A stretch of 64,000 bases of DNA, from assembly GCA_027488815.1 (NCBI GenBank), contig JAIYAX010000012.1:248001-312000 (forward strand). The letters run 5' to 3'. Position 1 is the stretch's first letter. Each line of letters begins with the position of its first letter. This DNA comes from Cytophagaceae bacterium. GTDB taxonomy: Bacteria > Bacteroidota > Bacteroidia > Cytophagales > JAIYAX01. Below the pieces are notes generated by a model, which worked only from the letters and a program-made list of their open reading frames with translations, was not told the DNA's origin and did not search any database. The translations under genes were made by a program, and so were the position numbers. Positions 3,204-11,205 of the stretch are shown piece after piece.

Positions 3204-4493
3204 ATGAACCTTCAATACATTAACAGAGCCTTTTTTCTCCTGCTGCTCCTGCTGCTCACCCTCTTCTTTGCAGCACATGCACAGGTCACACACCCAGCGT
3301 TTCATCAGCGCAAAGCCAATTCCAAAGAGTTTGCTACTTTAAGGCAGGCTTTTGTAAAGCATCATCCTTTGCCAATGTCTTCAGGTCAACTGGATAGTGT
3401 CTTTAGGAGCTTGGAGGAACAGTCATGGTCCCCCTTTGGTCTATATCCCTTTTGTTTTGAATTGAATAAACAACTTTACAAGAATGGTATTCAAGGTCTT
3501 CAAATCCAACCTGCCGAAGGGGTACACCATTCTCGTAAACACCTAAAAATAGGCATCACCTTCATTGAAGATAAGCCAATTGTAACGGAGAGTGGAGAGG
3601 AAAAACTTCCTGTCGGAGTATACCTGCTTTCTCTAAACCGTAAGCCAATTAAGGATTGGGTGGACATCGCCATTCATCATAAGTACGGAGAGATATACCC
3701 ACATGGAAGCTTTTCGGAGCTCACTGATAATTTTTCAAGCTGGATAGGTGAGCTAAGCCCGACCGATACCTTTTCAATTCTCTATATGGACTTCTTTGAA
3801 AAAAAAGTGCATCAATTGGTACTGTCAGGTCATCGTTTTGAGGGCTTTCAGCAGTGGATGGCTTCCAGAAAAAGCCCTGCAGGTTTAAGCTCAACAGCAC
3901 TTGAGGAGACAGATCCTTCAGAACTAGTTTATTCCCGTGCGATTTATGGCATCGATAAAAGTTGGGAAGAACTCTGCAAACAGGGTGCAAAGACGGGTGT
4001 TCTTGATCTGAGGGATACAGATACGTTATTGCTTCAGGATGCGGTAGGTTGGTCAAAGGTATTGACAGGAAACAAAGTCGGCTTTTCCATTAGCAAAAAG
4101 GCTGCAACACCAGATATGCTTGGTAGTGAGCTAAAACCCAAAGAGGCTTGCCCGGTTAACATCACTTTACTCACCAATGGAAGGACAGGAGTTGCAGCCA
4201 CGCTGTTGGCTTCAGCCATTCATGATCATCAGGCTCAAATGCTTGCCGGATCGGAAACAGGAGGAGCCTACCAGGGAGGCTTTCTGCCCATTTTCCAATG
4301 GCTTACGCTTTTTGAAGGAAAAGTTAAAATTGGAATTCCCCTGTACTACCTAAAGTACGAAGGAGATCTGTACCCCTTAAAAGATAGAGGCATCATTCCT
4401 GAACACCTTTTTCAGGGCACATGGGAGGATTACATGCAGGGTGAGGATGCGGAATTGTCTGCTTTGATCAGACAGCTGACTGAGGGTCGGTGA
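3204..4493 (+). CDS. Secreted S41 (tail-specific) peptidase-like protein, catalytic Ser absent
   Basis: A 429-residue exported protein with a signal peptide ending about AHAQ (residue 27). The C-terminal half follows the S41/CtpA fold: VNITLLTNGRTGVAATLLAS occupies the place of the nucleophile motif, followed by MLAGSETGGAYQGG, KIGIPLYYLK and DRGIIPEH, all normal landmarks of this family. The nucleophile position, usually a T-A-S-A or similar turn, reads T-G-V-A, so the serine is replaced by valine. The protein is probably a binding or scaffolding pseudoprotease. The 3' end overlaps the convergent merC gene by 26 nt. Substrate and partner are unknown. Confidence 0.7.
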   Translation: MNLQYINRAFFLLLLLLLTLFFAAHAQVTHPAFHQRKANSKEFATLRQAFVKHHPLPMSSGQLDSVFRSLEEQSWSPFGLYPFCFELNKQLYKNGIQGLQIQPAEGVHHSRKHLKIGITFIEDKPIVTESGEEKLPVGVYLLSLNRKPIKDWVDIAIHHKYGEIYPHGSFSELTDNFSSWIGELSPTDTFSILYMDFFEKKVHQLVLSGHRFEGFQQWMASRKSPAGLSSTALEETDPSELVYSRAIYGIDKSWEELCKQGAKTGVLDLRDTDTLLLQDAVGWSKVLTGNKVGFSISKKAATPDMLGSELKPKEACPVNITLLTNGRTGVAATLLASAIHDHQAQMLAGSETGGAYQGGFLPIFQWLTLFEGKVKIGIPLYYLKYEGDLYPLKDRGIIPEHLFQGTWEDYMQGEDAELSALIRQLTEGR

Positions 4494-4890
4494 TCGTGCA
4501 TTGGCAAGCAGCGCAGTGCTTTCTAGACCTCCAATTCAGGAAAAAAGCCAGAAGAAGCACAGAGGCACCTGCTAGAGATAGCCAGATTTGCTCATGATCA
4601 TGCTCAATAACATGGTGCAAAATCATAAGGCTAAAGCCTAAAGTGGCGACTAACATGGGTACCAGATGTCGGTGGCTTCTGAAATCCTTAGCAAAGGTAT
4701 AGGCCAGAAAAAAGCCACTTACGATCAGTAAAATACTTTCGGCCAATGGATGTGAAATGAGTTGGGCTAAGGTACCCGGTGTAACTGCCAGGATGATGGG
4801 CATACTCAGGCAATGTACTGCACAAGCCAGACCTAGGCCTTCATGAAGTTTGATTTTTTTACTATTGACGAGAGTTTCGCTTTTTGCCAT
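4468..4890 (-). CDS. MerC domain-containing membrane protein
   Basis: A 140-residue membrane protein with four hydrophobic segments. LACAVHCLSMPIIL (C23, H26, C27) is the MerC signature that in mercury systems binds the metal for uptake. A second set of thiols lies at the C-terminus (HCAACQC, residues 125-131), and His residues sit between helices 3 and 4 (HHVIEHDHE). In Bacteroidota such MerC proteins are commonly associated with zinc or other metal homeostasis rather than mercury resistance; here the neighbours (TonB receptor, metal-type lipoprotein, ABC permease with His-rich loop) argue for that. The gene starts 20 nt before the 3' end of the TonB receptor gene, so it may be the last cistron of that transcript as well as having its own promoter. 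Confidence 0.8.
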   Translation of the reverse strand: MAKSETLVNSKKIKLHEGLGLACAVHCLSMPIILAVTPGTLAQLISHPLAESILLIVSGFFLAYTFAKDFRSHRHLVPMLVATLGFSLMILHHVIEHDHEQIWLSLAGASVLLLAFFLNWRSRKHCAACQCTITDPQSAV

Positions 4891-4892
4891 AT

Positions 4893-4905
4893 TGTTGCAA
4901 ATATA
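4893..4905 (-). promoter_or_regulatory. Candidate -7 box and operator half-site of merC
   Basis: On the minus strand TATATTTG (4905-4898) matches TAnnTTTG and overlaps TTGCAACA (4900-4893), the same half-site word as in the palindrome at 8243-8262. Transcription would begin only a few bases before the ATG at 4890. No clear -33 element was found. Confidence 0.4.
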
Positions 4906-4910
4906 GTTAA

Positions 4911-7325
4911 TTATGATTTGGCCTTGTGTTTTTTTTCAAGCTTCCAGCTGAGCTGCACAATAAAATTGACTCCAGGCTCAGGCAGATTGAGTATTCTATA
5001 TCTGCTCAAATGATTGAAGTACAGAGTGTTTGTGGCATTTCGGCATTGAAGGGAGACCTGTACAATTTCTTCTTGTTTGTGATAAAGACTAAATCCACCA
5101 CTCAGGTGAAGCATTTGATAGCCAGGGGTAGACCACTCATTTCTTTCCACTCTTTTTTGAGCACTTATAATTCCCATGTTTGCTTCAAAGTACAGCTTTC
5201 TGATTTTTCCTCTCTGCTTGCCCGACTGCCAGCTCAAACCTGAAAAGTAGCTTGCTGGTGGCATATAAGGCAATGGCAAGCCAGTGCTCAGGTTTTCGCC
5301 CCAAACCCATTCCATGTTCTGGCTTATCTTCCAACCTGAGCCGATCGCCCATTCAACTTGAACCTCCTGACCGGTTATCTGAGCCTTAGTCTGAGTATGT
5401 TCAAATACCTGACTGGTACTGGGTAGGGCATAAAGTGCCCCATCAATTTCAACCCTGGGAAATAACCCTGTTGGTCTTTGGAACAAATAGTTGCTGAAGT
5501 AGTAAAGAAACGGACTGTACTGCATACTCAACCCTCCAATTTGATACTTAAACTCCGCATCAAACTGATAGCCTTGCTCAGGTTCTAAGTTTGGATTGCC
5601 TTTCTCAAACCTAAATGTGGCATGGTGCATACCATTTGCAGTGAGCTCTGGTACCACAGGTAGCCTGTAACTTTTTGCTGCATTCAATTTCAAATGCAAT
5701 CTTCTGGTCAGATCCCAGCTCAGCCCAAATGCCGCTGCATAGTTTAAATACCTTCGTGCAACTCTGGAGTTTCGTTCAACTGAATCGATGAATACAAACC
5801 TTCTGTAAAACGGGAATATTGATCGGTCAGCTATTTGTCTGGCAGTCTCTATTCTGGCTCCAATGTGGATGGTTAGATGATCTATAGGTTTGTATTTATG
5901 TAACATGAAAATACCCAACTGAGTGCTACTAAACGAAGGTAATAGAAACTCAAAACCACTTGGTCGGTTGTTCTGCTGACTAAGTTGAGCTCCAAAGACG
6001 AGCGTATGTCGATGCCCTTTGGGTACAAAATACCTGAGCCCAGCACTTATGCTCTGTAGCTGCAATCTTAGAGCAAGCGTGCTGTTGTCCGGAAGTGGCT
6101 GGCCATGGGTATGGGGTACTGATCTTTCCTGTCGGTCGTTGTGCTGATAACCAAGGTCAGATTCTAGCCATCCTTTCCCAAGTTGCAGAGTGGTGTTGCT
6201 TATTACCTTGAAATGATTGATCTGCTGAAATGGCAAGCCAATGTTGCGCCTGCCATCTTGAAAAAGCCTGTCTGTGGTTACCCTGCCAATGGCACCAGTA
6301 AACAAGCCAACTTTTTGATGATAGTTCGAAATTGTCAGATGAGTATACCCCCATTTGCGATGAACGCCCAGCATTAAATTGCTATGCACTTCACGGCCTG
6401 CAGTGTTTTTGAGCCTTCCGCCAAACAGTGGGAAGTAGGTGTCCTGGTAGTAAAAGGTATCAGAAGGTACCCTATAGTCACCATAGCTCAAGCCGGTAAC
6501 TCTGGCTTGATAAACAAAGCCTTTCTTGTTGCCCTTTGCTGTACTTGTGATGCCATATGTGTGGTTGTTTGTTTTGTAAATCAACCTACTCTCTGAGAGA
6601 TGCGTGCCTTCCTGTAAAATGTTTGGCTTGCCAAGACTTATGACACCTCCTATAGCATCAGAGCCATACAAAAGGGATCCTGGACCTTTGATAATTTCTA
6701 TGTTTTCTACACCATATTGGTCTATTTCCAGCCCATGGTCAGCTCCCCACTGTTGCCCTTCTTGTTTAATTCCTTGATCTGCAACAAGTACACGCTGAAA
6801 ACTCAATCCTCTGATTACAGGTTTGGAAACGCCCACTCCAGTATTAATGCTACTCACTCCAGGTAATCGATCAAGAGTTTCCATTAGAGTATTGCCATTG
6901 TTGCGCCTGATGTACTCCTTACCAACCTGTATGATGGGTTGACTGCTTTCCTTCTCGCTGAATTTGTTACGGTCGGCCTCAATCACAACTTCTTGTAACT
7001 GCCCAATACTTTCTTTAAGTTCCGTTTCGATAAATACATCATCAGTTTTGAGATTTACCCATTTGCTTATCTTTTCATAGCCAATCAATTGCACATGCAG
7101 ATGATACACTCCAGGGCTCAATCCTTTTAAGGAAAAGAAACCTAAGCTGTCAGTTAAGCCTGCCTGTAAGGTTTCATGGAGATAAACAGTTGCACTTTGC
7201 AGGGGTTGCTTGTTTTCATCAAGTACCCGGCCACTCAAGACCAATGGCTGCGCATTTATAACTGAGGTTATAAACAAACACAGTATCAAAATACACTTTA
7301 AATGAATAGAAAACTTAAAGGTCAT
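4911..7325 (-). CDS. TonB-dependent outer-membrane receptor
   Basis: An 804-residue TonB-dependent receptor: signal peptide ending near INAQ, a carboxypeptidase-like regulatory domain (LSGRVLDENKQPLQSATVYL), a plug domain (DRLPGVSSINTGVGVSKPVI, GPGSLLYGSDAIGG), then a 22-strand type barrel ending in an aromatic residue-rich terminus. A loop contains SVPHTHGQ, consistent with metal binding. The start at 7325 (MTFKFSIHLK) was preferred because the 13 residues upstream would run through the intergenic hairpin. It follows the DUF4625 lipoprotein gene by 58 nt on the same strand. Zinc or another divalent cation complex is the inferred ligand; a siderophore cannot be excluded. Confidence 0.9.
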   Translation of the reverse strand: MTFKFSIHLKCILILCLFITSVINAQPLVLSGRVLDENKQPLQSATVYLHETLQAGLTDSLGFFSLKGLSPGVYHLHVQLIGYEKISKWVNLKTDDVFIETELKESIGQLQEVVIEADRNKFSEKESSQPIIQVGKEYIRRNNGNTLMETLDRLPGVSSINTGVGVSKPVIRGLSFQRVLVADQGIKQEGQQWGADHGLEIDQYGVENIEIIKGPGSLLYGSDAIGGVISLGKPNILQEGTHLSESRLIYKTNNHTYGITSTAKGNKKGFVYQARVTGLSYGDYRVPSDTFYYQDTYFPLFGGRLKNTAGREVHSNLMLGVHRKWGYTHLTISNYHQKVGLFTGAIGRVTTDRLFQDGRRNIGLPFQQINHFKVISNTTLQLGKGWLESDLGYQHNDRQERSVPHTHGQPLPDNSTLALRLQLQSISAGLRYFVPKGHRHTLVFGAQLSQQNNRPSGFEFLLPSFSSTQLGIFMLHKYKPIDHLTIHIGARIETARQIADRSIFPFYRRFVFIDSVERNSRVARRYLNYAAAFGLSWDLTRRLHLKLNAAKSYRLPVVPELTANGMHHATFRFEKGNPNLEPEQGYQFDAEFKYQIGGLSMQYSPFLYYFSNYLFQRPTGLFPRVEIDGALYALPSTSQVFEHTQTKAQITGQEVQVEWAIGSGWKISQNMEWVWGENLSTGLPLPYMPPASYFSGLSWQSGKQRGKIRKLYFEANMGIISAQKRVERNEWSTPGYQMLHLSGGFSLYHKQEEIVQVSLQCRNATNTLYFNHLSRYRILNLPEPGVNFIVQLSWKLEKKHKAKS

Positions 7326-7334
7326 ATAATGAAA

Positions 7335-7361
7335 TACCCTGTGACTTGAGGCCACAGGGTA
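7335..7361 (-). other. Hairpin just upstream of the TonB receptor start
   Basis: A perfect 9-bp inverted repeat, ACCCTGTG plus one flanking pair at 7335-7343 and 7353-7361, encloses a 9-nt loop. On the minus strand it lies 9 nt before the receptor ATG and is preceded, not followed, by a T run, so it does not look like a terminator for the upstream lipoprotein gene. A leader or processing element between the two cistrons is possible. Confidence 0.6.
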
Positions 7362-7383
7362 CAAAAAAAATTAAAGGCTAAGT

Positions 7384-8217
7384 TTATTCGACATGAAGTT
7401 CGCCTTCACGCATTCTTACATTCCCCAGCTTATCCGAAACGATTATTTTCACATGAAAATGTTTGCTTGTTCCAGGTGCAACTGATGGAAGTTTGATCAG
7501 ATCGCCCGGATTGATGATGTTGGCAAACTGAAAAGTATTTGCATCAGTGAACAAAGATGGATGGGTAGAAATTTTGAATTCTCTTTTATAAAGAGGTTCT
7601 CCGTCAGTAGCACTTGATATTCTCATGTGTTCGCCTTCTTCTTCCACCTCTATTTTTACTTTTTCGATTTGGTCAGGGTCAGTAGCTGTACCTGCCAGCC
7701 TTAATGTATCCAGTGGCTTCATATCGATTTCGCCCAAGCCAAAATTTGCAGGAGCGGTAATATTGATCACAGGTTCTGAACCATTTGAAAGGTTAAAATC
7801 CAGATAGAAAGAATTTCCTTGATTTCCGGCCGCATCAGTTACGAAAAGTCCCACATGGTATGGACCTGCAAGTGCTGTACTTGGTATCCATGTTTCAATC
7901 TCATCTTCACGAAGTGTGCCACTAAGCCTGATGATGGTATCCCATTCATAGGGAGTGCCAGCTAATCGCCCATGGCTATGCCCGTCAAAGTTGTTGTGAA
8001 CATCGATTTTGAGCTCTTTCAACCCTAGATTGTCTGAAACTTTGTAATGAATTTCCAATTTGTTGCCAGCGTTAATCTTTCCTCCGATCACACCATGTAG
8101 GTGTGTGCTGCTGTTAATTACAGGACGAGTAGTGTCCTGAGGAGCTGCGTCTTCATCTTTGTTACAAGATGCTAAGGCAAAAAGACCCAGTAAAATGATG
8201 ATGCGAAAGTTCTTCAT
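7384..8217 (-). CDS. DUF4625-type lipoprotein, probable metal-binding
   Basis: A 277-residue lipoprotein (lipobox LASC, Cys19) with two Ig-like repeats of the DUF4625 type, about residues 30-145 and 146-277. His-containing segments such as STHLHGVIGG and FDGHSHGRL suggest divalent metal binding, and a similar HFHVKI strand occurs in the second repeat. In Bacteroidota such lipoproteins commonly pair with a TonB receptor as an outer-membrane capture unit. It is the first gene of the minus-strand unit and is divergent from the ABC transporter genes; both are separated by a 131-nt region holding a 20-bp palindrome. Function is inferred from context. Confidence 0.75.
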   Translation of the reverse strand: MKNFRIIILLGLFALASCNKDEDAAPQDTTRPVINSSTHLHGVIGGKINAGNKLEIHYKVSDNLGLKELKIDVHNNFDGHSHGRLAGTPYEWDTIIRLSGTLREDEIETWIPSTALAGPYHVGLFVTDAAGNQGNSFYLDFNLSNGSEPVINITAPANFGLGEIDMKPLDTLRLAGTATDPDQIEKVKIEVEEEGEHMRISSATDGEPLYKREFKISTHPSLFTDANTFQFANIINPGDLIKLPSVAPGTSKHFHVKIIVSDKLGNVRMREGELHVE

Positions 8218-8242
8218 GTTTGTTTTATTTGCTTTTTGAAAT

Positions 8243-8262
8243 ACTGTTGCAGATGCAATAGT
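8243..8262. promoter_or_regulatory. 20-bp palindromic candidate operator between divergent metal-locus genes
   Basis: The sequence reads ACTgTTGCAgaTGCAAtAGT: eight-base arms of ACT and TTGCA match their inverted partners, separated by two central bases and one mismatched base in each arm. A third TGTTGCA copy follows at 8262-8268, and the merC promoter holds TGTTGCA at 4893-4899. Length and symmetry fit a Fur/Zur-family site. The regulator itself is not in the window. Confidence 0.55.
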
Positions 8263-8348
8263 GTTGCAAAAGTAATTTTATTCATTCAATTCACAAAACA
8301 ATTATCAAAGAGTCCTGATTTTTGCTTTGCGGACTACAACACGGATAA

Positions 8349-8975
8349 ATGCTAGAAGCTCGTTCACTACAATTTGCTTATCCCGGTCAGAAAAGTATAC
8401 TTTTTCCTGACTTAACACTCCATACAGAAGAGCAGGGCATTTTACTTGGCCAAAGCGGAAAAGGTAAGACCACCTTTCTCCACATGGTATCAGGCCTGCT
8501 TAAGCCTAGTCAGGGGCACGTATTTGTTAACGGGATTGAGTTAAGTCAGTTAAGCGCCAGGGAACTGGATAGTTTCCGTGGCGAACAAATTGGATTGATG
8601 TTTCAGAAGCCGGTGTTTGCTCCAGCACTTAGCGTTTGGGAAAATCTGCTGTTGGCTTGTAGTTTTTCTTCAAAAAGTCCAGATCAGGTTTACATGAAGG
8701 ACTTGCTTTCCTTGCTCAACCTGAGTGGGAAAGAGAGGCGAAAACCTCAGCAACTAAGTAGTGGTGAGCAGCAAAGGCTTTCGCTGGCTAGGGCCTTGGC
8801 TCATAAGCCCAGCCTTATTCTGGCTGATGAACCTACCTCTGCATTGGATGATGAAAACTGTGAAAAAGTGATCCATCTCCTCAAAAAGTCCTGCGCAGAA
8901 GCATCTGCGACTTTGCTGGTGGTCACCCATGATCAAAGAGTTAAACAGTCATTTCAAAGAAGCTTTACACTATGA
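8349..8975 (+). CDS. ABC transporter ATP-binding protein (LolD/MacB type)
   Basis: A 208-residue ABC ATPase with Walker A GQSGKGKTT (34-42), Q-loop Gln86, signature LSSGE (136-140), Walker B LILADEP (156-162) and H-loop His194. The short length and spacing are those of LolD/FtsE/MacB-type ATPases that partner FtsX-fold permeases. Its stop overlaps the permease start by 4 nt. The ATPase-permease-DUF3299 order resembles the Zur-controlled zrg genes described in Vibrio, from memory of that literature, which supports a zinc-related role. Confidence 0.88.
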   Translation: MLEARSLQFAYPGQKSILFPDLTLHTEEQGILLGQSGKGKTTFLHMVSGLLKPSQGHVFVNGIELSQLSARELDSFRGEQIGLMFQKPVFAPALSVWENLLLACSFSSKSPDQVYMKDLLSLLNLSGKERRKPQQLSSGEQQRLSLARALAHKPSLILADEPTSALDDENCEKVIHLLKKSCAEASATLLVVTHDQRVKQSFQRSFTL

Positions 8976-10249
8976 ATGCGCTGTACATAGCCTGGAAAAA
9001 TCTGGTTTTCAGACCGCTTTCATCCCTGCTGACGCTCCTTCTACTAGCTATAGGAGCAGGTATCATTTTTTTAATTATCACTCTTTCCAGCCAGTTGGAA
9101 AAGAGTTTCACCTCCAATCTTGCCAATACGGACATGGTAGTAGGTGCCAAGGGGAGCCCTCTGCAACTGATACTTTCTTCCTTGTACCATATTGATGCTC
9201 CTACAGGAAACATACCTATGGCGGAGGTACTCAGTTTGAAGAGAAACCCGCAAGTAAAGCACCTGAGTATGTTGGCCTTGGGCGACAATTATGCAGGCTA
9301 TAGGATCGTTGGAACGGATGATCAGTTTGCGAATTTCTATGAACTTAAGCCAGCAAGTGGAAGTCTTTGGTCTGAACCTATGGAGGTGGTGCTTGGATCC
9401 GAAGCTGCCATTCAGCTTCAATTGACTTTAGCAGATACCTTTTACAGCATTCATGGGCTTGATCAGGAAAATGATCACCGACATGACCAAAGTGCATTTA
9501 GGGTGGTTGGCATACTCAAACCTACCGGAACTGTGGTTGACCAATTGATTCTTACCTCTCTTCAGAGCATCTGGAAAGTACATGAGTCACATGACCATGA
9601 GGAATCAGCTTCTTCAGAGGGACAGCCGCATGTGCATTCGGAAGACTGTGAGCATGATCATCATGACCATGATCACGAGCATGAAGAAGCGGAAGTTGAG
9701 GAAGATCGAGAGGTCACTTCTGCATTGGTGATGTTCAAAAGCAGCTTAGGCAATGTCACAATCCCTAGGATGGTCAATGAGCAAACAGGAATGCAGGCAG
9801 CACTTCCGGCTATTGAGATAAACAGACTGCTTAGTCTGCTGGGTCTTGGTTCAAAATTGCTCAGTGCGCTAGCCTGGTTACTTATGCTCGTGGCGGGACT
9901 TAGCCTTTTCATCGCTTTGTATAACTCCATTAAAGAAAGGCGATACGAAATGGCCCTTCTCAGGACCTTTGGTGCAAGTCCATTCAAGGTTTTGGTATTG
10001 TTGCTTAACGAGGCCATAATCCTCACATTGGCAGGATGCGTTTTGGGATTTGCGCTAAGTAGAGTTGCCATGCTCATTCTTATTGCCAATTTGCCTTCTC
10101 AATCGATGTATCAGTTTCAAATACTTGGTCCACAAGCGGAAGAGTGGGGTATCATTGCTGCTTCTTTTGTGCTGGGACTGGTTGCAGCTCTGCTACCAGC
10201 ATTGAGAGTTTATAAAATAGACGTATCACGAACACTTTCAGGAGAGTAA
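8972..10249 (+). CDS. ABC transporter permease, FtsX/MacB-like, with His-rich periplasmic loop
   Basis: A 425-residue permease: one N-terminal helix (about 15-37), a large periplasmic domain, and three C-terminal helices (about 285-310, 335-362, 385-408), the FtsX/MacB plan. It ends with the usual LPALRVYKIDVSRTL. Residues 204-238 are exceptionally rich in His, Asp and Glu (for example HDHDHEHEE), a low-complexity insertion seen in zinc-handling proteins. The insertion sits in the periplasmic domain and could bind or sense Zn2+. Start ATG overlaps the ATPase stop. With the ATPase it forms a mechanotransmission-type or lipoprotein-remodelling ABC complex. Confidence 0.87.
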   Translation: MNALYIAWKNLVFRPLSSLLTLLLLAIGAGIIFLIITLSSQLEKSFTSNLANTDMVVGAKGSPLQLILSSLYHIDAPTGNIPMAEVLSLKRNPQVKHLSMLALGDNYAGYRIVGTDDQFANFYELKPASGSLWSEPMEVVLGSEAAIQLQLTLADTFYSIHGLDQENDHRHDQSAFRVVGILKPTGTVVDQLILTSLQSIWKVHESHDHEESASSEGQPHVHSEDCEHDHHDHDHEHEEAEVEEDREVTSALVMFKSSLGNVTIPRMVNEQTGMQAALPAIEINRLLSLLGLGSKLLSALAWLLMLVAGLSLFIALYNSIKERRYEMALLRTFGASPFKVLVLLLNEAIILTLAGCVLGFALSRVAMLILIANLPSQSMYQFQILGPQAEEWGIIAASFVLGLVAALLPALRVYKIDVSRTLSGE

Positions 10250-10255
10250 CCCATC

Positions 10256-10708
10256 ATGAAGAACTACCTTTTTTCATTCTTTTCGGCATTGATTTTTCTG
10301 CTCATGACCAACAGTTGGTCGATGGGACAGAAAGTAATCACTTGGAAAAACCTGGAGGATGTCACGTACAAAGAGAAGTTTTCTGCGGAAGCCGATGCCT
10401 ATTTCTGGTTCCCAACTTTTGGTAAAAGTGTATTGGATATGGAAGGAAAAGAGGTCCAGATCAAAGGCTATGTGATCCCTGTCGACGTTAAGGAAAACCT
10501 ATATGTTTTATCAGCCTTCCCTTTTGCAGCTTGCTTTTTCTGTGGAGGAGCCGGTCCTCAAACCGTTTTGGAGCTGGCCTTTGCTAAAAAGCCACGAAGG
10601 TACGAAACGGATGAGCGTTTGACTTTCAAAGGCAAGTTCAAGCTAAATTCCACTGATATTTACCGCATGAACTACATTCTGGAGTCAGCAGAACAAGTCA
10701 AAGAATGA
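10256..10708 (+). CDS. Exported DUF3299-like protein with FFCGGAGP motif
   Basis: A 150-residue protein with a signal peptide (cleavage about MGQ, residue 25). The core has GYVIPVDVKENLYVLSAFPF followed by CFFCGGAGPQTV (C93, C96), the most conserved motif of this DUF3299-like group. The CxxC could bind metal or act in redox chemistry. Six bases separate it from the permease gene, and its end overlaps the next gene by 4 nt, so it belongs to the same transcription unit. DUF3299 proteins are part of zinc-responsive ABC operons in Vibrio, which is the basis for the proposed role. Confidence 0.7.
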   Translation: MKNYLFSFFSALIFLLMTNSWSMGQKVITWKNLEDVTYKEKFSAEADAYFWFPTFGKSVLDMEGKEVQIKGYVIPVDVKENLYVLSAFPFAACFFCGGAGPQTVLELAFAKKPRRYETDERLTFKGKFKLNSTDIYRMNYILESAEQVKE

Positions 10709-11205
10709 AATTATGCCCTTTACTTTTTCTATTGCTCATAGGATTTGAGCTATCTGCGCAAGAGTATCTCTCGCTGCAGAAGCCATTTAGGTTCAAGAAC
10801 ATCACTTATCGGCAGGGCGACTTGCTGAAGTTTAAAACCCATCAGGATAAAGGAAGGAAAGAAGGATATCTATTGTCATTTGATGAGACATCATTTCGGT
10901 TGGATGATGGGCGTGCCTATCAAATAAAAAATGTTCGTACTGTCGTAAGAGGTCCTGAACGAGGAGGTATTGTTGTGGCAGCCCCAACAAAAGTGGTCAT
11001 AGCATCGATCATTTTCCTTTTAGCTGATATGATCTCTTCAAGTGGTTTTTCACCTGGTCCTCCCTCCTTTATCGTTACCGGGGCAATTGCCTCTTCATCT
11101 CTGCTCTTTTTACCATTCAGAAACCGTTTACACCGCAAGAGCTTTGGCTGGAGACTGTATTTTGTTAATCCAAGTCCATTAAAAGTTCCAATTCCAGAAA
11201 ACTGA
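10705..11205 (+). CDS. Hypothetical protein with signal peptide and central membrane segments
   Basis: A 166-residue protein not recognised as a known family. It has a signal peptide ending LSAQ (about residue 19), a beta-rich segment (residues 25-80, ending in YQIKNVRTVVRGP) and two hydrophobic stretches at about 90-112 and 122-137, then a basic tail (RNRLHRKSFGWRLY). It overlaps the DUF3299-like gene by 4 nt and is the last gene before the terminator at 11428, so it is probably an accessory part of the transporter unit. Confidence 0.6.
   Translation: MKLCPLLFLLLIGFELSAQEYLSLQKPFRFKNITYRQGDLLKFKTHQDKGRKEGYLLSFDETSFRLDDGRAYQIKNVRTVVRGPERGGIVVAAPTKVVIASIIFLLADMISSSGFSPGPPSFIVTGAIASSSLLFLPFRNRLHRKSFGWRLYFVNPSPLKVPIPEN

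Follow-up and report, generated by a model that had tools for sequence, protein, structure and literature searches.

A candidate Zur operator in the promoters of a putative zinc-acquisition cluster of a Cytophagaceae bacterium

Introduction

A near-perfect palindrome of 20 bp, ACTGTTGCAGATGCAATAGT, stands between two divergent sets of genes in the genome of a Cytophagaceae bacterium, which raises the question of whether a regulator reads it and, if so, which one and to what end. The original prediction was made on the same 64,000-nt stretch of DNA that is analysed here as a whole (hereafter the window). It noted that half-sites of the palindrome recur in the promoter of a nearby merC gene, which would be explained by a Fur-family repressor of all three transcription units, and it proposed enrichment of the pattern near metal genes as its own test. 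Here, we will compare the palindrome with a second arrangement of the same half-sites that is found upstream of merC in relatives, describe the genes and promoter elements beside it, and discuss which regulator and which metal it may serve.

Results

The gene cluster and its intergenic palindrome

The cluster comprises seven genes, which are listed in Table 1 together with the predicted boxes and promoter elements. The TonB-dependent receptor matches several NCBIfam models below their cut-offs (heme/hemoglobin models, E 1e-36 and 5e-35; ZnuD, E 1e-32). The DUF4625 protein, which appears to be a lipoprotein by its N-terminus, has homologues in only 4 of 59 genomes (its own included), and a contig search with the permease protein returned only two distant relatives. 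No clear motif is seen by eye in the regions upstream of the permease in 29 relatives, with minus-strand loci left unoriented. Homologues of the weakly DUF3299-like protein are found by tblastn in the clusters of several relatives (L079, L104, L137, L139 and L155); compared with solved structures, this protein gives weak matches (E ≥0.56), mostly to copper-resistance/CopC proteins.

Table 1. Genes, predicted boxes and promoter elements of the cluster (coordinates within the window).
Feature	Position	Strand	Basis or remark
MerC-family membrane protein	4468..4890	-	Pfam PF03203, E 4e-12
TonB-dependent outer-membrane receptor	4911..7364	-	Pfam plug + barrel
DUF4625 protein, first gene of leftward operon	7384..8217	-	PF15418, E 1.2e-26
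ABC transporter ATPase	8349..8975	+	PF00005
MacB/FtsX-type ABC permease with His-rich loop, ZrgB-like architecture	8972..10249	+	PF02687, PF12704
Weakly DUF3299-like protein	10256..10708	+	PF11736, E 0.009, below cut-off
Protein of unknown function, last of rightward run	10705..11205	+	no Pfam match at E 0.01
Predicted Zur box 1, TGAAATAcTGTTGCA	8237..8251	.	2 mismatches to TGCAACAnTGTTGCA
Predicted Zur box 2, TGCAATAgTGTTGCA	8254..8268	.	1 mismatch to TGCAACAnTGTTGCA; overlaps -7 element of leftward operon
Predicted Zur box of merC, minus-strand TGCAACAaTATGGCA	4885..4899		2 mismatches; on merC promoter, overlaps start codon
-7 element TACTTTTG (TAnnTTTG), leftward operon	8267..8274	-	begins 6 nt before box 2
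-33 element TTG, leftward operon	8294..8296	-	19 bp upstream of -7 element
-7 element TATATTTG, merC	4898..4905	-	same box register (-6) as 8267-8274

The palindrome lies at 8243-8262 and is self-complementary in eight of its ten base pairs. The two copies of TGTTGCA that had been pointed out in the intergenic region (8262-8268) and in the merC promoter (4893-4899) are present as claimed, together with a further copy at 8245-8251, and the copy on the merC side does overlap the -7 element (4905-4898, minus strand). Taken by itself, TGTTGCA occurs in the window at chance level (16 found, 15.0 expected). The full 20-bp pattern at ≤3 mismatches has one match in the window against 0.51 expected, and at least one in 38 of 100 shuffles, a count that is no separate test of the exact match. 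The 2-bp-spaced core of the palindrome, TTGCAnnTGCAA, is found at eight sites in the 3.37-Mb genome and at none for the reversed control; only the window's site has a promoter location, while the other seven lie inside ORFs according to the ORF tables.

A 7-1-7 box upstream of merC

The merC genes of other genomes of the order point to a different arrangement, a 7-1-7 box with a 1-bp spacer. This box, TGCAACAnTGTTGCA, was derived from their upstream regions after the window had already been read. The merC sample consists of 34 matches in 32 genomes, with loci for 30 (L069 was omitted, as it offers no usable tblastn anchor). A uniform test region of 250 nt upstream plus 45 nt was taken for 28 relatives and for the own merC, resulting in 29 regions. 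The relatives are represented by one merC per genome, but with several that share a genus they are only partly independent.

At ≤2 mismatches, TGCAACAnTGTTGCA is found upstream of merC in 20 of these 28 relatives as well as upstream of the own merC; the remaining eight relatives have no box in this upstream-region test. Control palindromes with permuted half-sites (n=419) match on average 0.02 of the 29 regions, with a maximum of 3. When the spacer of TGCAACA-n-TGTTGCA is varied from 0 to 11, n=1 is found in 21 of the 29 regions, n=11 in three, and all other spacings in none. The reverse order of half-sites in the palindrome's own arrangement (TGTTGCA-2-TGCAACA) is found in 0 of the 29, and the same order with n=7 in six, which would be neighbouring boxes.

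In the window, TGCAACAnTGTTGCA has three matches at ≤2 mismatches against 0.47 expected, a number that is reached in 2 of 100 shuffles. These three sites are Fur-family-type 7-1-7 palindromes located in promoters, each with one or two mismatches. The palindrome at 8243-8262 is probably the seam between two of them, made up of the right half of box 1 and the left half of box 2. The centres of boxes 1 and 2 are 17 bp apart, which differs from the spacing of the seven exact tandem pairs found in relatives (centre distances of 23, 29, 36, 36, 38, 38 and 39 bp).

Alternatively, the operator could be the 20-bp palindrome itself, with a single dimer on its 2-bp-spaced repeat, or a composite site at which two dimers have three half-sites between them. 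A third half-site does lie 2 bp from a full box here, and in 634 kb of fetched loci 8 of 14 near-matches to this arrangement (≤2 mismatches) are located at boxes; two of the eight are the same site present in two loci, and another two lie at either end of a single box. We read these third half-sites as a weak hint of an extended operator. Against the palindrome stand the merC upstream regions, which hold the 2-bp spacing in 0 of 29 cases versus 21 of 29 for the 7-1-7 box, and the seven of eight genomic TTGCAnnTGCAA sites that lie inside ORFs. On the merC spacing counts and the ORF location of the genomic cores, the 2-bp-spaced palindrome is rejected as operator, and we regard a palindromic or composite operator as unlikely. 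The original prediction was right about the half-sites, and the 2-bp-spaced recognition unit that it built from them was wrong.

As in the window, third half-sites at a distance of 2 nt from a complete or nearly complete box were observed in L097, L105, L113, L128, L137 and L169.

Distribution of the box in the genome, the order and the phylum

The exact box is absent from the own genome. At ≤2 mismatches, nine sites are found versus three for the reversed control, and the only three promoter sites among them are those of this cluster. The other six are in coding sequence (five assigned by ORF table, one in an open frame read directly), and one of these six has only one mismatch to TGCAACAnTGTTGCA. 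A genome scan at 3 mismatches is uninformative (148 sites versus 54 in the control). Of 231 genomes of the order, 86 carry the exact box, at 183 sites in total, and the other 145 have none; the reversed pattern, which contains CpG and is possibly depleted, has two sites. Elsewhere in the phylum the exact box is rare: 16 of 380 genomes have it, at 18 sites, and the control has one.

These counts also bear on a simpler explanation, in which the shared TGTTGCA is a mere echo of the -7 element (TAnnTTTGCA), the palindrome has arisen by chance, and no repressor is involved. Such an echo would fit the chance-level frequency of TGTTGCA in the window and the TAnnTTTG elements that overlap two of its three copies. 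However, the -7 element does not include the far half of the box (the TGTTGCA past the 1-bp spacer), and the box as a whole is nonetheless found in 20 of 28 merC relatives, and many of the exact sites in the order adjoin zinc genes. We reject the chance echo on the order counts (183 versus 2) and on the conservation at merC, and consider it highly improbable.

Genes beside the box in relatives

From the 183 exact sites in the order, 75 unique sites were examined, with a target defined as a gene start within 200 nt and genes in the fetched loci called as the longest ORF. Seventy-three of them come from listed matches, and two (in L139) were picked because a permease gene and merC adjoin there; the latter contribute 3 of the 89 target genes. 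Four sites lie deep inside ORFs and a further six lack a target. By Pfam, the 89 target genes include MerC (12), TonB plug (9), Pyr_redox_2 (9), ABC_tran (6), cobW (4), FUR (3) and GTP cyclohydrolase I (folE; 2), and many of the 89 box neighbours are not metal genes.

ZIP zinc transporters, cobW and folE are known zinc-limitation genes, and in relatives the box precedes genes of this kind (cobW, folE, ZIP and zur). Outside the order, where 17 of the 18 exact sites were examined (with the site inside an ORF in 2 of 16 loci), the exact box is found between a FUR-family gene and merC in L173, L174 and L175, between FUR and a ZIP zinc transporter in L179, beside FUR in L177, and before cobW in L182 and L183. 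The loci L174/L175 and L182/L183 are pairs, each from one genus. Passages of PMC2770081 tie COG0523 (cobW) to zinc limitation. The enrichment near metal genes that had been proposed as a test is thus found for the 7-1-7 box in relatives and fails for the 2-bp-spaced palindrome.

The sole relative that has both the DUF4625-TonB pair and the ABC cluster (G008) shows no box at ≤2 mismatches in either of its fetched regions. In the own genome, a cobW search gave three matches, the best of which (E 3.8e-9) lies within a 1158-aa open frame, and no clear COG0523 zinc chaperone was seen.

Several other proteins recur next to exact boxes. A Pyr_redox_2 flavoprotein with the motif GGSYAGLSAAMALGRSLR or a close variant is found in L090-L094, L127, L134, L143 and L150, which places it among the commonest exact-box neighbours (9 of 89 targets). 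Lipoprotein-like proteins with an FKFINLLVSDA-like sequence, which possibly bind zinc, lie downstream of exact boxes in L113, L120, L129, L130 and L136. Furthermore, small His-rich proteins follow exact boxes in L109, L110, L111, L112, L137 (7152-7556) and L140 (5911-6231), and several of these carry a FACDL-type stretch.

Register of box and promoter

Promoters of Bacteroidota follow the consensus TTG-N19-TAnnTTTG. The promoter of the leftward operon is one of only eight TTG-N18-22-TAnnTTTG matches in the window, counting both strands. For the -7 element of merC, no TTG is present at the matching -33 distance. On the side of the ABC operon, the plus strand of 8202-8360 has no TAnnTTTG, and only TAATTTTA at 8273.

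The same register was examined at 36 single-target exact sites of relatives, a sample from which 31 two-sided sites and two near locus ends were excluded. TAnnTTTG is found at offset -6 from the box at 7 of the 36 sites versus 1 of 36 for the mirror position, making this the commonest TAnnTTTG register. A second register has TAnnTTTG 32 nt after the box start (6 of 36 sites versus 0 on the other strand); here, the -33 element at a distance of 19 bp upstream would come from the TTG of the box itself.

The candidate regulator

The own genome encodes three Fur-family proteins. One of these, a Zur-like paralogue encoded outside the window (C20:163269-163679), has two CxxC motifs and Zur as its top NCBIfam model (32.9 bits, with the cut-off at 167); neither of the other two paralogues reaches its NCBIfam cut-off. 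Compared with solved structures, the best match of the Zur-like protein is labelled Fur and the second is E. coli Zur (4mtd). All eight of the Fur-family genes found beside exact boxes match the Zur-like paralogue best of the own three. Zur-like genes are also located inside the box-bearing clusters of L137 and L155 and some 4 kb away in L139, and in all three loci exact boxes are flanked by merC on one side and on the other by a gene for an ABC ATPase, which in L155 is a fragment. No box accompanies the own zur-like gene, whose best site has 6 mismatches. A PerR-like Fur-family gene (C20:580850-581185) stands directly upstream of a peroxiredoxin-like gene.

With three Fur-family proteins in the genome and a Zur-like protein that scores below the Zur cut-off, the boxes might instead be read by another regulator, such as the PerR or Fur paralogue, or their reader might be Zur-like but sense another metal. 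Several Fur-family regulators use 7-1-7 boxes, and Per and Fur boxes are 7-1-7 as well. For Zur, 7-1-7 boxes are named in passages of PMC6103462. Set against this are the eight out of eight box-adjacent Fur-family genes that resemble the Zur-like paralogue most, and the ZIP zinc transporter, cobW and folE among the box neighbours, which make another regulator or another metal quite improbable.

Discussion

A model for the locus

We consider it very likely that the cluster serves zinc acquisition under the control of Zur, with zinc-loaded Zur repressing the DUF4625/TonB operon, the Zrg-like ABC operon and merC. Building on the sequence, promoter register and regulon context observed here, we infer DNA binding, zinc dependence and repression. 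When zinc is sufficient, Zn-bound Zur dimers (probably of the Fur-family protein from C20:163269-163679) would occupy the boxes at 8237-8251, 8254-8268 and 4885-4899. Bound Zur would cover the -7 elements TACTTTTG and TATATTTG, and in this way shut RNA polymerase out of both merC and the leftward operon. Upon zinc starvation, Zur would be released from the boxes.

The proposed Fur-family repressor is well supported, and the box neighbours (zur-like genes, merC, cobW, ZIP and folE) point to Zur. For the divergent ABC operon, repression is proposed from position only: because TAnnTTTG is missing from the plus strand there, we infer this control from the shared intergenic region. The metal sensed is likely zinc, and a zinc role of merC is suggested by the box upstream of it in relatives and by the FUR-family gene beside it in three loci.

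More broadly, we put forward, with about even chances of its being right, that the Zur operator of Bacteroidota (chiefly of this order) is TGCAACAnTGTTGCA with half-sites built into the unusual promoter of the phylum. Its 5′ TG would complete the -7 element TAnnTTTG, or its 3′ TTG would supply the -33 element located 19 bp further upstream; boxes in tandem with a spacing of 36-39 bp would cover both. MerC would then be a zinc-starvation protein and not a mercury transporter. A single palindrome would in this way lead to a zinc regulon that is open to testing and whose operator is defined. Zinc roles are suggested for merC (annotated as mercury resistance), for the DUF4625 and DUF3299-like proteins and several lipoproteins (all annotated without a function), and for the Pyr_redox_2 flavoprotein (redox).

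Comparison with known systems

The Zur mechanism is known. Among the matches listed in PMC open-access literature, no Bacteroidota Zur box was found, nor in passages of PMC6103462, PMC10957091, PMC2770081, PMC9976891, PMC9820375 and PMC6613475. By term search, PMC6103462 (a Zur review) contains no Bacteroid- or Flavobacter- word, nor does PMC2770081 (on COG0523), in which Cytophaga occurs only in a UreG table.

With the MerC transporters of mer operons, the cluster shares the Pfam MerC domain; none of MerA, MerP, MerT and MerR is found among the seven cluster proteins (4468-11205). A parallel in architecture may be drawn to ZrgABCDE of Vibrio cholerae, which passages of PMC9820375 and PMC6103462 describe as Zur-regulated and as containing a MacB-like permease. 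Like ZrgABCDE, the cluster combines a MacB-like permease with an ATPase, the two systems being likened by domain architecture and description. The two differ in that none of the seven cluster proteins was assigned to the solute-binding family ZrgA at the thresholds applied; merC and the genes for the TonB receptor and the DUF4625 protein are present instead.

Zur regulons in general share with the locus a Fur-family protein, a 7-1-7 palindrome, boxes over core promoter elements, and zinc importers, TonB receptors and cobW/COG0523 as targets. More than one Zur box per promoter is already known from passages of PMC6103462. What sets the present system apart from known Zur regulons is the box sequence TGCAACAnTGTTGCA, the presence of MerC and the Pyr_redox_2 flavoprotein among its commonest targets, and half-sites that coincide with the -7 element (TAnnTTTG) and possibly with the -33 element (TTG).
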